Positions 20,641-61,594 of a stretch of DNA of 64,000 nt are shown here, piece by piece. Position 1 is the first letter of the stretch, and each line of letters begins with the position of its first letter. The position numbers and the translations under genes were made by a program. Source of the stretch: Pelosinus fermentans DSM 17108 (GTDB lineage Bacteria > Bacillota > Negativicutes > DSM-13327); assembly GCF_000271485.2 (NCBI RefSeq), contig NZ_AKVN02000001.1:438001-502000 (forward strand), in the 5' to 3' direction. The notes below the pieces were generated by a model. The model made no database searches and was not told the DNA's origin. It saw only the letters and a program-made list of their open reading frames with translations.

Positions 20641-20787
20641 TTAGCACCGTTGTAAGAATTAGTATTTATAAAGAGAAGCTACCCACAATAACTTAGTTAG
20701 TAAATGGGCAGCTTCTCTTATAGCTGATATGAGCGATAGAAAGACAAGTGAAAGCGTATTAATTTTAAATGGGACAAGGAACCTGTC
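20641..20787 (+). repeat. Intergenic repeat module, copy A (3' core truncated)
   Basis: The stem AGAGAAGCTACCC..GGGCAGCTTCTCT lies at 20672-20719, followed by the GATAGAAAGACA block and GGGACAAGGAACCTGTC. The final CCCGTGTCCC is missing: the sequence changes at 20788 to an unrelated GC-rich fragment. Confidence 0.8.
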
Positions 20788-22914: not shown

Positions 22915-23139
22915 GGGGCAGGTTGTTTGACCCGAGAGATGGGAGAGGAATAATAAGAAAAATAATCCTAGTATAACGCTTTAAACGTAAGAATTTAGCA
23001 GGATTTAGCATTGATAAAGAGAAGCTGCTCATAATAACTTATATGGGTAGCTTCTCTTTCATTTAATCTATCGATAAGATAAAAAGGCAATTTAGATTTA
23101 GCGTCTTAATATGGGACAAGGAACCTGTCCTAATGTCCC
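22915..23139 (+). repeat. Intergenic repeat module, copy B
   Basis: Includes the outer left block GGGCAGGTTGTTTGACCCGAGAGATGGGAG, the stem AGAGAAGCTG..GTAGCTTCTCT (23018-23058) and a core GGGACAAGGAACCTGTCC..TGTCCC ending at 23139. It fills most of the gap between the nitroreductase and the 58-aa gene. Confidence 0.85.
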
Positions 23140-23401: not shown

Positions 23402-23618
23402 AAGTATCGCCTCCCTAATTATTATCTGCATTACAATAAATTAAATTCAAAGAGGAAGGCTACTAGTTTAATAAATAAGCAATCCCTCAGATTTCGAGTC
23501 ATATACGGCAGTCATAACCATAACAGAAAAACACGATAAATTCAAGCAGAATCGATTCTAATTAAGATAAACCTATGTTGCGATTCTTATTGGGATTAAA
23601 GAAACTGTCAATTGATAA

Positions 23619-23794
23619 GAAACTTGAAACAGAGCCTTGCTTTGGTAAAATAATGCTTAATAAAAAATATAGCAGGGTTTAGCATTATGAAAGAGAAGCT
23701 ACCATAATTAGCTAGTTAGTAAATTTATGAGCCATAGAAAGACAATTGAGAATGTATCATTTTAAATGGGACAAGGAACCTGTCTCCGTATCCC
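23619..23794 (+). repeat. Intergenic repeat module, copy C (stem damaged)
   Basis: Left block ACAGAGCCTTGCTTTGGTAAAATAATGCTT, left stem arm AGAGAAGCTACC present, right arm lost (ATTTATGAGCC instead), then the core GGGACAAGGAACCTGTCTCCGTATCCC. The rest of 23402-23930 holds no gene that I can support. Confidence 0.8.
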
Positions 23795-23944
23795 TATTCA
23801 TTTCATTAGCTTATCAGCTGGGATTGAGATAATCGGTTAACTTGCGCTAGTCGGCTAATGTGTATAGAAATTCCCTTTGATGGAAGAATAAAGACTATAT
23901 TGGCAAACAACACGCGAACCGTTAAATATTAGGAGACCAGCAAT

Positions 23945-24046
23945 ATAATTCGATGGCGCCGACCTGCCGATCCTAAGCCTATTCTAATCATTTTTGTCAT
24001 AACCCTCGTGACTGTGATCGCCTGGCGGCATTCCTATCGAATATGA
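23945..24046 (+). CDS. Possible small single-span membrane protein
   Basis: A frame with no ATG, GTG or TTG but with AGGAG nine bases before an ATA codon encodes about 33 residues: IRWRRPADPKP, a hydrophobic LIIFVITLVTVIAW helix and RHSYRI. Its TGA overlaps the next gene's ATG as ATGA, the layout of a coupled operon. It could be a small subunit with a rare start codon, or the tail of a decayed gene. Confidence 0.35.
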   Translation: MIRWRRPADPKPILIIFVITLVTVIAWRHSYRI

Positions 24047-24840
24047 AAGTGTGTAGAATGACTGAAAAAAAACAGCACGAATCAATAAGAAACCAACGCC
24101 GTCCAAAGGGAATCGTGAATCCGATTTCTATGAATTTCATCCACCTCAGAACGCCGTGGGTAATTACCTGGTGGTCAGCTTCTTACCTTGGCTATGCTTA
24201 TATGATCCTGGGAAGTTATGTAAAAGGCTTTATTTTAATATTCCTGGAAGCTTTTATAAATGTCAATAGCAATTTGAACCTGGGGATATTGTATAGCTTC
24301 ACAGGGCGCTTTGAGATGGCCAAACAGGTGGTAGATGTCAATTGGTTGCTCTTTTATGTACCGATATATATCTATTCCATTTGGGGAGGATACGGGCTTA
24401 CTGTAGACCTAAACAAATACTCCATTCTGGCTGACAGGGAAAATTCCAGCATGATACCCTTTAAGATCAGTAGTTGGGAAATCGCCTTTTTAGATAAGCG
24501 GAAGCCCTGGATGGCGATGGCGTTGTCCCTTTTAGCCCCCGGCCTGGGCCATTTATACACCCATAGAGTCCCTGCCAGTTTCTATACACTGACGTGGTGG
24601 AGTTTCATCGCTTACAAGGGAAATCTATTTCCCTGTATACACCTCACTGCAATTGGTGACTTTGCTGGCGCCACCATGGTAGCTGATCCTTTATGGCTGA
24701 TCTTTCTGCCCTCCATTTACGTGTTCTCAATTTATGATGCCTATGTAAACACAGTAGAGTATAACAGATTGTTCGAGCAAGAACAGAAGCGATTCTTAAT
24801 TGACAACTATCAAAGTGCAAATTTTCCAGTACCAGAATAA
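24043..24840 (+). CDS. Multi-span membrane protein, PGLGHLY type (paralogue 1)
   Basis: A 265-residue membrane protein with about six hydrophobic segments; I do not recognise a named family. It begins TEKKQHESIRNQRRPKG, a charged cytoplasmic lead shared with the protein at 25376-26173. Two related units follow: WWSASYLGYAYMILGSYVKGF (about 45-65) and ALSLLAPGLGHLYTHRVPASF (about 160-180). The PGLGHLY pattern recalls TM2-type membrane domains. The C-terminus ends with YDAYVNTVEYNRLFEQEQKRFLIDNYQ. The ATG at 24043 is coupled to the preceding small frame; an ATG at 24058 matches the paralogue's start better. Confidence 0.7.
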   Translation: MKVCRMTEKKQHESIRNQRRPKGIVNPISMNFIHLRTPWVITWWSASYLGYAYMILGSYVKGFILIFLEAFINVNSNLNLGILYSFTGRFEMAKQVVDVNWLLFYVPIYIYSIWGGYGLTVDLNKYSILADRENSSMIPFKISSWEIAFLDKRKPWMAMALSLLAPGLGHLYTHRVPASFYTLTWWSFIAYKGNLFPCIHLTAIGDFAGATMVADPLWLIFLPSIYVFSIYDAYVNTVEYNRLFEQEQKRFLIDNYQSANFPVPE

Positions 24841-24858
24841 ATATAAGGTGGGTTCTAA

Positions 24859-25395
24859 TTGTACGTTTACGCGTCCTTTGACTATTCGGCCTTTCTTGAA
24901 TTGGCCATAACCGATCTGGAGAAGCGCGGGATCGCTAGAGAACATATCTTGGCAGTTCCTTTGGACAAAAGGGTTGAGGAAAAAATGGTCCTGGATAGCA
25001 TTCATCGGGCAGATGGGATGAGCTTATTTGACGGGGCTATGGTTCTGGGAGCAATACTTATGGAGTTAGGCGTTATATATGGCTTTGTCTTAGCTTGGGG
25101 GCCGATTATCTGGGGGTTGATAGGACTACTGAGCGGAGCAATTATCGGATTCCTGCTTGATTACTTTTATGGAAGGATATTCGGGCACAAGAAAAAAAGA
25201 TCACCTCGCAACCGGGTTAAAGCCGGGGATTGCAAGAATACAGAAGTAATACTTACAGTTTACTGCGACAACAGTCAATACGAAATGGTAGAGAAAGTGC
25301 TATGGGACAATATGGCCTTTGGGGTAGGCAAATTAGACCGACTGCATACTACGATAGGAAATGGGGCGGCAAGTGATGGAAAAGAAGCAAGCTGA
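24859..25395 (+). CDS. Membrane-hairpin protein with ferredoxin-like flanks
   Basis: A 178-residue protein starting with TTG after AAGGTGGG. Residues 1-40 (YVYASFDYSAFLELAITDLEKRGI) and about 130-165 (EVILTVYCDNSQYEMVEKVLWDN) look like two halves of a small alpha/beta domain split by a Gly-rich hydrophobic hairpin (about 62-108, LIGLLSGAIIGFLLDYFYG), followed by a basic KKKRSPRNR turn. This layout resembles proteins in which a cytoplasmic sensory domain is joined to a membrane helix pair. It sits between the two paralogous membrane proteins and its end overlaps the third gene by 20 bases. The family is unnamed. Confidence 0.65.
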   Translation: MYVYASFDYSAFLELAITDLEKRGIAREHILAVPLDKRVEEKMVLDSIHRADGMSLFDGAMVLGAILMELGVIYGFVLAWGPIIWGLIGLLSGAIIGFLLDYFYGRIFGHKKKRSPRNRVKAGDCKNTEVILTVYCDNSQYEMVEKVLWDNMAFGVGKLDRLHTTIGNGAASDGKEAS

Positions 25396-26173
25396 ATCCA
25401 TAAGAAATCAACGCCGTCCTAAAGGAATTGTGAGCGAACTCACAATTAATCTGCTTCACGTAAAAAATCCTTGGATAACGGCCTTCTGGTCAGCAATGTT
25501 TCCGGGTCTAGGATTCCTCATCATGGGGAGTTATATAAAGGGCTTTCTGTTGATTATCGGGGCGACCATCGCAAACTCCATGGCACATATTAACGAGGCG
25601 ATTATCTATGGGTTTACCGGTCAAACTGCATTGGTTAAACAGGTCCTCGATACCAGGTGGCTGCTTTTTTATGCGCCTTTGCAGCTTTTTGCCACTTGGA
25701 GCAGCTACCAGCTCACTGTTGATTTAAACAAATATGCACTCCTTGCCGCACGAGAGGATTCAGCAATTATTCCCTTTAAAATCGGTACATGGGACATAGG
25801 ATTCATCGATAAACGAAATCCCTGGGTGGCGGCAGCTTGGTCCCTTCTCATGCCTGGCCTGGGTCATCTTTATAGCCACCGAATCCCTACCAGCTTTTAT
25901 TTGCTGACCTGGTGGATTGGGATGTCTTACATGGCCCATCTCCTCCCGGCCATCCATCAGACGCTTTTGGGCAACTTTCCCCAGGCCATTGCCGCGATTA
26001 GGCCGGAATGGTTCTTATATTTGGTGGCCATTTACCCGTATTCCGCTTATGATGCCTATGTTAATACGGTTCAGTATAATACATTATTTGACCAGGAACA
26101 GAGCCGGTTCCTCATTGACAATTATCAAAATCCCAAGTTTCCCATGCCCGTAATGGATGATAACAGTCATTAA
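25376..26173 (+). CDS. Multi-span membrane protein, PGLGHLY type (paralogue 2)
   Basis: A 265-residue paralogue of the protein at 24043, alignable end to end: EKKQAESIRNQRRPKGIV, WSAMFPGLGFLIMGSYIKGF, LTVDLNKYALLAAREDSAIIPFKI, WSLLMPGLGHLYSHRIPTSF and the same FLIDNYQ tail. Here both internal units keep the PGLG motif, showing that the protein itself arose by duplication of a PGLG helix-turn unit. The start at 25376 is chosen by match with the paralogue; the upstream ATG at 25361 has no better ribosome site. Confidence 0.7.
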   Translation: MEKKQAESIRNQRRPKGIVSELTINLLHVKNPWITAFWSAMFPGLGFLIMGSYIKGFLLIIGATIANSMAHINEAIIYGFTGQTALVKQVLDTRWLLFYAPLQLFATWSSYQLTVDLNKYALLAAREDSAIIPFKIGTWDIGFIDKRNPWVAAAWSLLMPGLGHLYSHRIPTSFYLLTWWIGMSYMAHLLPAIHQTLLGNFPQAIAAIRPEWFLYLVAIYPYSAYDAYVNTVQYNTLFDQEQSRFLIDNYQNPKFPMPVMDDNSH

Positions 26174-26286
26174 ACTCGTTCCGGCATTGAGCAATTTTTG
26201 CTGCGATCGAACTTTTTTCTGCATATAAACGATCTTTAGTCTTATTCTATAAGCAAGATAGTTTTTACCTGACGGTAATACTAAAC

Positions 26287-26521
26287 AGGGACAGTTATTT
26301 GGCTTGAGATGGGAGAAGCAATATAGAAACCTGAAACAGAGCCTTGCTTTGGTAAATGCTTATAAAAAATATAGCAGGATTTAGTATTATAAAAGAGAAG
26401 CTGCCCATAAATCTACTAATCGTAGATTAAGGGTAGCTTCTCTTTGGGTTGACATACCAATAGAAGGATAATTTAGAACGTATCCGTTTTAAATGGGACA
26501 GGGAACCTGTCCCCGTGTCCC
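26287..26521 (+). repeat. Intergenic repeat module, copy D (complete)
   Basis: GGGACAGTTATTTGGCTTGAG, then the AAACAGAGCCTTGCTTTGG block, then the stem at 26394-26443 (AGAGAAGCTGCCCATAAATCTA and TAGATTAAGGGTAGCTTCTCT), then the core ending CCCCGTGTCCC at 26521. A broken RND-pump fragment starts within five bases of its end. Confidence 0.9.
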
Positions 26522-26525
26522 AATT

Positions 26526-26669
26526 AGTGCCCCGTCAACCATTACCAGGTTTAACGGCCTCCCCGCCGTCCAATTGAGTGGCAGCCCGGCAGCAGGCTAC
26601 AGCTCGGGCCAGGCCTTAGCAGCGCTGGAAGAAGTGGCAGCGCAAACAGTAAGGTTAGCAACACGCTAA
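26526..26669 (+). pseudogene. Fragment of an RND efflux pump (AcrB/HAE1 type)
   Basis: A 47-codon frame reads SAPSTITRFNGLPAVQLSGSPAAGYSSGQALAALEEVAAQ before a stop. It matches the AcrB region around MVTRFNMFPAAEISGAPAPGYSSGQAMAAME. Nothing of the remaining 1000 residues is present. The piece is visibly richer in GC than its surroundings and directly follows a repeat core, which marks the left breakpoint. Confidence 0.75.
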
Positions 26670-28693: not shown

Positions 28694-28918
28694 ATGTCTA
28701 AAAATACAGCGTATACGCAGAAAGAAGTCGGATATCATGTCAAAGGTCTGACAGATATTTTAAATGAAACTTCAATTGAGTACTTTTTACTTAGTCGGCC
28801 ATTGATCTGTGAAAGCAATTTGATCAAATGATGGGAACAAGATACCGCGCCGGCAAAGTGTACTTCTTGCAATAAATGTTTTCGATTTGACGGAACGGTT
28901 TGTATTTTTAACCGTTAA
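28694..28918 (+). pseudogene. C-terminal remnant of an Old Yellow Enzyme-family oxidoreductase
   Basis: Starting at an ATG after AGAGGGC, the frame reads VKGLTDILNETSIEYFLLSRPLICESNLIK, an in-frame TGA (28829-28831), then WEQDTAPAKCTSCNKCFRFDGTVCIFNR. This is the conserved C-terminus of NADH:flavin oxidoreductases (LSRPLI..PDLI..W....KC.SCN.C). The catalytic barrel is missing. A related enzyme lacking this very end lies at 39552-40448. Confidence 0.75.
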
Positions 28919-29077
28919 ACGCTTATAAAAAATATAGCAGGATTTAGCATTATAAAAGAGAAGCTACCATAATAAATTAGTTAAATAGGCAGCTTCTCTT
29001 TTAGTTGATATGAGTGAGCGAAAGACAATTGAGAACGTATTGGTTTTAATAGGGACAAGGACCTGTCCCCGTGTCCC
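28919..29077 (+). repeat. Intergenic repeat module, copy E
   Basis: Begins at the remnant's stop codon with GCTTATAAAAAATATAGCAGG, then the stem AGAGAAGCTACC..GGCAGCTTCTCT (28957-28999), and a core ending at 29077. Confidence 0.85.
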
Positions 29078-29113
29078 TATATTCCTCTATTTTATAATAA
29101 TGGGAGTGGAATT

Positions 29114-33497: not shown

Positions 33498-33513
33498 CAT
33501 TTCAGTATATTAA

Positions 33514-33660
33514 GAAACCTGAAGCAGAGCCTTGCTTTTGCAAAATAATGCTTATAATGTAAAAATATAGCAGGATTGGGCATTTATAAAAAAGAAGCGA
33601 TAAAGTAAAAGCAATTTAAAGCTAGCGTCTTTAGGGACAAGGAACCTGTCCCCGTGTCCC
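33514..33660 (+). repeat. Intergenic repeat module, copy F (stem degraded)
   Basis: GAAACCTGAAGCAGAGCC and GCTTATAATG are present, the stem is reduced to AAAAGAAGC, and the core is intact and ends at 33660. The LysR remnant starts at once after it. Confidence 0.85.
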
Positions 33661-33662
33661 AT

Positions 33663-34184
33663 TTCATACGTAGATTTGGTTTTTCATGAGATGTCTACAC
33701 CAATGCAAATTGAGGCACTTCACAATAAGGATATCGACATTGGCTTTGTAAGAACCCCTGTGATTGATCCGTTCATATCACTCTGGTCAGTATCGCCGTC
33801 GTACCGAAGCTGCATCCACTTGCGCAGCGCGCTTCAATATCCATGAGTGATCTGAGCACAGAACGATTTATATTAGTAGAGAGGGAGGTTTGGCCGAGCT
33901 GGTATGATGATATCCTCTCAAAATGCCGTGATGCCGGGTTTAGCCCAATCGTTCGTCAACATGTGAAAGAAATCCAGACAGTTGTTGGGTTGGTAGCGGC
34001 AGGACTATGTATAAGTATCGTACCAAGATCAACAGCAAAATTACATGCGCGGGACGTGGCCTATGTTACTATTGAAGGAGAAGCCCCACGCGTAGAAATG
34101 AGTATCGCTTGGAGAACGGATGACAGTTCAACCTTGGTAAAACAATTTCTCGATACAGCAGCAGGTTATAAAAAAAGGAGGTGA
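33663..34184 (+). pseudogene. Broken LysR-family regulator (effector domain only)
   Basis: The first frame reads FHEMSTPMQIEALHNKDIDIGFVRTPVIDPFIS; after about 33780 the homologous sequence continues in another frame as LVSIAVVPKLHPLAQRASISMSDLSTERF and then to the end at 34184 (VGLVAAGLCISIVPRS). The helix-turn-helix domain is absent: the sequence before it is the repeat module. So the gene has lost its 5' third and carries a frameshift. The open 33843-34184 part alone would make a 113-residue protein of no use as regulator. Confidence 0.8.
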
Positions 34185-35620: not shown

Positions 35621-35780
35621 TAATAGGTTCTGGAAGGATTTGGCATATATAAAGAGAAGCTGCCATAATACATTAGTTAGTGAATTTATGGGAAGCTTCT
35701 CTTTTAGTTGATATAGCGATAGAAAAACAATTAAGAACTTATCGGTTTTAAATGGGACAAGGGACCTGTCCCCGTGTCCC
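35621..35780 (+). repeat. Intergenic repeat module, copy G
   Basis: GGAAGGATTTGGCATATATAA, the stem AGAGAAGCTGCC..GGAAGCTTCTCT (35653-35703), TTGATATAGCGATAGAAAAACA, and a core GGGACAAGGGACCTGTCCCCGTGTCCC. Apart from it 35546-35889 holds only about 100 bp of unassigned AT-rich sequence. Confidence 0.88.
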
Positions 35781-35889
35781 ATTGCAGCTATTGAACTAAA
35801 TAACAAATTTACAGCTTGCAATAATATACTATACGTATTTATTTCTTTGATGTATTATTCATGAGAATAACATTTGAGGAGCGTATAGT

Positions 35890-42361: not shown

Positions 42362-42576
42362 GCATCAAATTGAAGGAGAAGTTACCCATAAAGTAATGTG
42401 TACCCTTTGTCAAAGACAGTAAAAAAAGCCTATGCAGTTTTAAGAAGATGATTCTTGTATTGAGCAGGAGTCATCTTTTTTTATGGGCAGTTTCTCTTTT
42501 GGTTGACATACCGATAGAACGATAATTTAGAACTTATCGGTTTAAAATGGGACAAGGAACCTGTCCCCCCTGTCCC
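42362..42576 (+). repeat. Intergenic repeat module, copy H, split by an IS remnant
   Basis: Left stem arm GGAGAAGTTACCCATAA (42375-42391), about 90 foreign bases, right arm TTATGGGCAGTTTCTCTTTT (42481-42500), then TTGACATACCGATAGAACGATAA and the core GGGACAAGGAACCTGTCCCCCCTGTCCC (42549-42576). Apart from it 42352-42861 holds no gene. Confidence 0.8.
42393..42480 (-). mobile_element. End of an IS3-family element inside repeat copy H
   Basis: On the minus strand the sequence reads MTPAQYKNHLLKTA and stop, the usual C-terminus of IS3/IS150-type transposase OrfB, followed by TTTTTTTACTGTCTTTGACAAAGGGTACA, an IS3-like terminal end. Only the last 88 bp remain. Insertion between the two stem arms of the module shows that the module was there first. 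Confidence 0.5.
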
Positions 42577-42861
42577 ACGTATCGGCATATACAGTTCTTT
42601 CAGGATAACTAATTACGCTAAGATATCAGAAATCTATGCTAGTGAGTTTGTTTAATACCTGCAAAGACAGCATCTACGCCCCGACTGTGAATTTTTCTGG
42701 AAACAAAAGGGGAATAATGATAATATCATAGTGGGCTTCAAACATCAAAAATGAAATCATATTGGTTGATAAATTGATTTTCACATAAAGCCCTCGGCAT
42801 TAAATTTTATGGGTTTTGATGAAAAAGAAATGTATGTATTAGAACAAAGGATGTACACTAC

Positions 42862-46091: not shown

Positions 46092-46318
46092 AAGGGACAG
46101 GTTGTTTGTATCGAGAGATGGAAGAATTAAGAGTCCTGGACTACAATTCTTATTGGGATAAAAGCAACTGTAGATTGACAAGCAGGATTTCGCATTTATA
46201 AAGAGAAGCTACCCATAATAACTTAATTAGTAAATTTATGGGCAGCTTCTCTTTTAGTTGACTACGGATAAAATAAGAACAATTTAGAATTATCGTTTTT
46301 AAATGGGACAATGAACCT
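46092..46318 (+). repeat. Intergenic repeat module, copy I (core lost)
   Basis: GGGACAGGTTGTTTGTATCGAGAGATGGAAG, then the stem AGAGAAGCTACCCATAA..TTATGGGCAGCTTCTCTTTT (46202-46252), and a degenerate GGGACAATGAACCTC. A right-half core copy lies separately at 46469-46485. Confidence 0.8.
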
Positions 46319-47990: not shown

Positions 47991-48236
47991 ACAAAGCCTT
48001 GCTTTGGTAAAATAATGCTTATAATGTAAAATTATAACAGGATTTAGCGTTTATAAAGGGAAGCTAACCATAATAAACTTAGTTAGTAAATTTAAAAAGA
48101 GAAATCATTCATAAATCTAGCAGATTATGAATGGTTTCTCTTTTTTTTTGACATATCGATAGAATAAAGATTATTTAGAATTATCGTCTTTAAATTGGGA
48201 CAAGGAACCTGTCCCCGTGTCCCTTCCCCGTGTCCC
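47991..48236 (+). repeat. Intergenic repeat module, copy J, with rebuilt stem
   Basis: The left block (AAAGCCTTGCTTTGGTAAAATAATGCTTATAATG) is followed by a partial stem (GAAGCTAACCATAATAAAC) and then by a second, differing stem AGAGAAATCATTCATAA..TTATGAATGGTTTCTCTTTTTTTTT (48096-48150). Both arms differ from other copies but still pair. The core is followed by a duplicated CCCCGTGTCCC. No gene can be supported at 48237-48636. Confidence 0.85.
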
Positions 48237-61383: not shown

Positions 61384-61594
61384 AGAAACCCCTGAAGCGG
61401 AGTCTTGCCTGGTAGAATAATGCTTATAATGTAAAAATATAGAAGGATTTGGCATTCATAAAAGAGAAGCTACCATAATAAATTACTAACTAATTTATTA
61501 TGGTAGCTTCTCTTTAGTTGACACTGGGCGGTAGAAAGATAATTAAGAACTGATTGGTGTATTAAATGGGACAAGGATCCTGTCCCCGTATCCC
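61384..61594 (+). repeat. Intergenic repeat module, copy K (complete)
   Basis: GAAACCCCTGAAGCGGAGTCTTGCC, GCTTATAATG, the stem with the longest perfect pairing (61463-61512: AGAGAAGCTACCATAATAAATTA and complement, 5-base loop), TTGACACTGGGCGGTAGAAAGATAA and the core ending TATCCC at 61594. Confidence 0.9.

Follow-up and report, generated by a model that had tools for sequence, protein, structure and literature searches.

A near-obligate pair of membrane proteins in endospore-forming bacteria, a candidate accessory of spore germination

In the window, by which we mean the whole 64,000-nucleotide stretch of DNA that was analysed, a cluster of three genes, A1-B-A2, led us to a near-obligate two-protein membrane module, A-B, that none of the family libraries searched describes. 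It is almost certain that A and B function together. Among the genomes sampled, and allowing for one incomplete MAG, the pair occurs only in genomes positive for SpoIVA, whose presence we used as a marker of spore-forming genomes. Judging from sequence and gene context, A-B may act in the spore membrane as an accessory complex tuning germination, a candidate role that we consider to have an even chance of being correct. Most work on the modulation of germinant receptors, and on the spore-membrane proteins that partner them, has been done in Bacillus subtilis and a small number of clostridia. A-B is a concrete candidate for such germination studies, as it joins ger operons repeatedly across Negativicutes and other Firmicutes, no family library searched gives it a name, and its host species differ in germination lifestyle.

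All three reading frames of the cluster are intact and lie on the + strand (Table 1). A1 and A2 are 55% identical over 258 residues, which is their whole length, and have in common the SIRNQRRPKG start and the FLIDNYQ tail. A preliminary description of the cluster had called them two 265-residue paralogues; the paralogy stands, but A1 is probably 260 residues long. Its frame is also open from an upstream ATG at 24043, and since this codon is absent from several orthologues, the start at 24058 is most likely. The A2 frame is open from 25361, and translation most likely starts at 25376, within the 3′ end of B. Two PGLG units had been assigned to each paralogue. A2 does have both, whereas the first unit of A1 is degenerate (YLGYAYMILG); the internal duplication of A1 is real despite this, as self-matches and a repeated helix pattern indicate. 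The reading of the middle protein as an alpha/beta domain split by a Gly-rich membrane hairpin was borne out by the alignment and the structure model. A 33-residue single-span protein proposed upstream had to be given up: its frame opens with ATT and lacks a standard start codon, and conservation is absent too, the frame being frameshifted or without its TGA in P. fermentans and other Pelosinus, and not recognisable in Sporomusa, Anaerospora or a Syntrophomonadaceae MAG.

Table 1. Features of the window, and gene orders at related loci (positions are those of the window)
Feature	Position	Strand	Description
Repeat copy	23618..23798	+	dispersed intergenic repeat, immediately left of cassette
Cassette	23800..26204	+	most likely moved horizontally; about 90% nucleotide identity with genomes of other GTDB families, no flanking homology
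Promoter-like element	23862..23892	+	GTATA-N17-AAGAATA, inverted repeat TTCC..GGAA in spacer
A1	24058..24840	+	260-aa membrane protein, tandem duplication of PGLG-type unit, first PGLG degenerate
B	24859..25395	+	178 aa, predicted ferredoxin/PII-like domain split by Gly-rich transmembrane hairpin, TTG start
A2	25376..26173	+	265-aa paralogue of A1, two PGLG units, start overlaps B end by 20 bp
Repeat copy	26321..26530	+	right of cassette, same repeat and orientation as 23618-23798
Other repeat copies	20656-20787, 22989-23139, 28916-29080, 33513-33664, 35635-35781	nearly all +	
Other repeat copies	42481-42577, 46181-46318, 47991-48223, 61384-61594		plus shorter pieces
L086			spoIID-like/A/B/gerXA/gerXB/gerXC
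L139			gerXA-XB-XC-A-B
L198			A-B-gerXA-XB-XC
L144/L203			A beside gerXA, with divergent B-A
L148			gerXA-XB-XC..B
L133			Spore_permease gene after A-B
Fused A-B frames			L072/L077/L078/L081/L076/L092/L075, L073, L084/L085/L087, L147/L149, L133, L142; separated places in the A tree

Of 100 related genomes, 22 have a relative of A, whatever its length, and 18 a relative of B; B relatives also occur in a further 17 genomes of the phylum sample (E below 1e-19). At about 51 loci from 35 genomes, A adjoins B in all but one, which is a relic. Every complete B has an adjoining A, and a full-length A adjoins B in every complete locus; the exceptions are a truncated B without A (L148), a deletion remnant (L096) and a truncated A (L138). 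A and B form a single fused reading frame at about 15 loci; in the tree of A these fused forms are intermingled with separate ones, a pattern that requires A and B to have fused or split independently several times. Furthermore, A and B are neighbours on opposite strands at L116/L145 and L117/L146. That adjacency persists through reorientation and that fusion has recurred argue strongly for joint action of the two proteins, and the fusions predict direct contact between them. The conservation of the A-B neighbourhood is far beyond chance, the two genes are near-obligate neighbours instead of occurring separately in other genomes, and profile searches identified neither protein as a known transporter or enzyme. 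The preliminary description had proposed one undescribed membrane complex. A and B do hold as such a unit, but the unit is not the triplet A1-B-A2.

Neither protein matches a curated Pfam or NCBIfam family above cut-off, and searches of PADLOC and PHROGs gave nothing convincing for either. No sequence relatives of A or B were found among solved structures, and the B profile found none in viral contigs. The same genome has a second A-B pair (L067:7036-8283, C1:4893 kb), which lies upstream of dnaX-recR in the same direction; at this dnaX-recR locus in the relative G004 (L096), a deletion remnant joins the start of A to most of B.

A consists of two tandem PGLG membrane units, with internal self-matches of roughly 20-30% identity, and single-unit relatives of 150-190 residues exist separately. 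In the predicted structure of A (mean pLDDT 75, pTM 0.72) there are only helices, arranged in two halves that resemble each other; the conserved residues are Asn, Pro, Trp and Tyr. Searches with this fold gave no Foldseek match of note, VIA-align Z scores below 5 and no useful PDB match, an absence that does not show a new fold. DUF6677 (PF20382) is matched by 18 of 26 A members and DUF5683 (PF18935) by 5 (E<=0.01); the A proteins of the window fall below both cut-offs (for A2, 22.2 bits vs 24.3, and 16 vs 26.7, respectively).

The B model was built from 7 sequences and is of low confidence overall (mean pLDDT 60), with core strands at 80-88. Its elements (E2-8 H11-22 E30-35, helices 56-109, E129-135 H138-150 E155-159) give a modelled order of beta-alpha-beta, two membrane-type helices and beta-alpha-beta, and B is predicted to have a ferredoxin/PII-like fold with a transmembrane hairpin. 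VIA-align matched the B core with many PII chains (GlnK, PstA) at Z of about 10-11 (rmsd 2.1-6.9, 71-90 residues), and the modelled core agrees with the ferredoxin-like beta-alpha-beta-beta-alpha-beta core of PII type. Foldseek, run on the same low-confidence model, ranked the ActD chains 8k9e_D and 6btm_D first (E 0.015). In ActD, a subunit of alternative complex III, a membrane hairpin interrupts an alpha/beta domain. Reading neighbourhoods of A-B by eye, we noticed no other act genes of this complex.

None of 24 B members matches YflT or DUF1269 at E<=0.01. The B profile does, along most of its length, match proteins that stand alone (E about 1e-8 to 1e-11), and these score above the YflT cut-off, some also above that of DUF1269. 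As stand-alone homologues match YflT, DUF1269 and, weakly, ActD, the architecture of B has known relatives, and B itself is distantly related, via these intermediates, to YflT/DUF1269 proteins and probably to ActD. Our literature search found no paper combining two of YflT, DUF1269 and ActD. Two other identities for B of the window were rejected, SpoVAB (18.2 bits vs a cut-off of 25) and DedA (VTT, 18.7 bits vs 33.9), each match being limited to the hairpin region.

The triplet A1-B-A2 is present in Pelosinus genomes, Anaerospora hongkongensis, Sporomusa ovata, a Syntrophomonadaceae MAG, and the genomes G041 and G048, which belong to other GTDB families. The tree of A places A1 sequences and A2 sequences in separate clades, both supported at 100/100; within the A1 clade G041 and G048 are nested among Pelosinus sequences, and the deeper forks are weakly supported. 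Nucleotide identity with the window is 90.1% for G048 (23800-26204) and 90.8% for G041 (23945-26184), with no homology outside these blocks. The upstream flank in P. fermentans is colinear with the window. Block identity without flank homology means that the triplet most likely moved horizontally as a unit, together with its upstream region. A1-B-A2 is a derived form that most likely spread horizontally, with the A1/A2 duplication confined to the moving cassette, and the duplicated pair would here form a complex of two different A subunits and B. On either side of the cassette lies one copy of a dispersed intergenic repeat, the two in direct orientation; the repeat is about 200 bp long and consists of the inverted repeat AAAGAGAAGCT..AGCTTCTCTTT followed by GGGACAGGGAACCTGTCCCCGTGTCCC. 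Three further copies lie 9-24 kb upstream of the window, and 17 other 15-kb stretches of the same genome contain one weak 29-bp match only; the repeat family appears to be restricted to this part of the chromosome.

With regard to phyletic range, A-B occurs in 17 of 40 SpoIVA-positive and 1 of 60 SpoIVA-negative genomes of the class sample, and in 18 of 336 and 0 of 62, respectively, of the phylum sample, the latter being weak alone and both being confounded by phylogeny and genome size. The sole SpoIVA-negative genome with the pair is an 83%-complete MAG of a spore-forming genus. Since many spore formers are without it, A-B is not essential for germination.

The genes around A-B are more specific. 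In five lineages the pair adjoins or sits inside gerXA-XB-XC operons (Table 1), and in a sister genome (L201) the spoIID-like/ger operon persists with only a fragment of A left between its spoIID-like gene and gerXA. Five GerA neighbours were seen within 5 kb of A-B at 51 loci, where 0.7 were expected after scaling to the number of GerA genes per genome, though the Poisson figures count related loci as if they were independent. At most A-B loci there are no adjacent ger genes, A-B accompanies only a minority of ger operons, and neither protein matches the GerA, Spore_permease or Ger(x)C families. Genes of the CBO0543 family (NF041644) lie within 2 kb of A-B at about 15 loci (0.55 expected), and at L199, L200 and L202 they flank ger operons without A-B. 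The genome that contains the window has 11 CBO0543 and 3 GerA genes; neither the triplet nor the second A-B pair has one of them as a neighbour. The preliminary description gave the job of the cluster as unknown. The job is not wholly unknown, because the SpoIVA range and the ger and CBO0543 neighbours point to the endospore and to germination.

CBO0543 proteins are numerous in these spore formers (up to 17) and stand beside ger operons or A-B pairs at, for example, L199, L200, L202, L145, L147 and L134. These membrane proteins look like further uncharacterised germination-linked proteins; our literature search found the family named in one comparative-genomics paper only. Proteins similar to one another are encoded near A-B or single-unit A genes at L198:4337-5266, L134:7575-9603 and L100:6782-7795; we take them to be of the DUF3231 type, on which no paper was found. 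In addition, two distant genomes encode a 201-residue lipoprotein-like protein without a Pfam match (L147:7656-8261 and L149:7406-8011), next to a CBO0543-type gene and a fused A-B.

The promoter-like element upstream of A1 is kept in 6 of 7 triplet orthologues though the flanks diverge. Its sequence loosely resembles forespore promoters, which would fit expression in the forespore but does not prove it. In a promoter scan of all A loci, sigma-E, -K and -G patterns were not enriched over shuffles; a sigma-F-like pattern was present at 2 A loci, a number reached in 3 of 200 shuffles. A relaxed pattern was found at 10% of A loci, mostly triplet orthologues, vs 4% of control genes. SASP genes served as an internal control; their sites, which we read as GTATG-N18-CAAYHTA, resemble the triplet element without being identical to it.

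We suggest that A and B would form one membrane complex of endospore formers, most likely in the forespore-derived inner membrane of the spore, where it would act as an accessory of GerA-type germinant receptors. B would be a membrane-anchored regulatory domain, its globular part on one membrane face and its hairpin packed against A, and A would be a membrane scaffold or path. Through B, the ion, nucleotide or hydration state of the spore core, or the state of a neighbouring receptor, could be passed to A, which might then open, close or stabilise the path or scaffold and so tune the readiness of spores to germinate. According to PMC11841064, GerA-type receptors are ion channels gated by nutrients and SpoVAF/FigP is an auxiliary ion channel; an accessory of the A-B kind thus has precedent. 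A more detailed version would make A-B a signalling component of the GerA receptor, in which a PII-fold B with its T-loop turned into a transmembrane hairpin, plus the duplicated PGLG protein A, gates or tunes ion release; we regard this version as unlikely.

The same SpoIVA-restricted range would also be expected if A-B were a spore or sporulation complex apart from germination, concerned with membrane or ion properties (resistance, mineral or dipicolinate uptake), with its ger neighbours reflecting joint forespore expression. The operon with a spoIID-like gene at L086, the many copies away from ger genes and a weak SpoVAB-like hairpin match in 3 of 24 B members fit such a role, but the recurrent joining of gerXA-XB-XC in separate lineages is more specific than joint expression predicts, and the SpoVAB match of B in the window is below cut-off and involves the hydrophobic hairpin only. 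We consider this possible but rather doubtful. The distant relationship of B to YflT/DUF1269 proteins, which lack a nearby A in many Firmicutes, raises the further idea of a vegetative complex for general stress or envelope homeostasis, as is thought for that type, with spore formers having more such genes because their genomes are larger. The many loci without a sporulation neighbour would suit it; however, the roughly 60 non-sporulating genomes of each sample are without A-B, bar the one incomplete MAG, and the ger and CBO0543 neighbours also argue against it, so that we find it quite improbable.

The movement of a 2.4-kb block between GTDB families, with direct repeats at both ends and no flanking homology, could instead mark the triplet as a passenger or maintenance module (defence or toxin-antitoxin-like) on a mobile cassette. 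The lack of a convincing PADLOC or PHROGs family and of relatives in viral contigs, and the presence of A-B elsewhere beside the housekeeping genes dnaX-recR (L067) or in ger operons, make this very improbable. A germination accessory is in our view the best explanation.

Compared with known systems, A has the PGLGHxY segment in common with DUF6677 and DUF5683, the match covering 25-40 residues only, but unlike them A is duplicated and has conserved Asn, Trp and Tyr residues outside the PGLG stretch. In its low-confidence model B has an interrupted-domain topology like that of ActD (PF11821), and its YflT-like relatives match ActD weakly, although B itself has no ActD sequence match in Pfam or among PDB sequences. 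The modelled hairpin, between strands 2 and 3, has the position of the T-loop in PII proteins; on the other hand, no sequence relation to the PII superfamily was found, and ferredoxin-like folds are common in general. With YflT (PF11181) and DUF1269 (PF06897), B shares the order of an N-terminal alpha/beta half, a Gly-rich GPI hairpin and a C-terminal alpha/beta half, but B is paired or fused with A, whereas the stand-alone proteins of that type are not. Finally, A-B and the GerA-type receptors and their accessories (GerD, the D subunit, SpoVAF/FigP) are all membrane proteins, and in several lineages the A-B genes adjoin gerXA-XB-XC.
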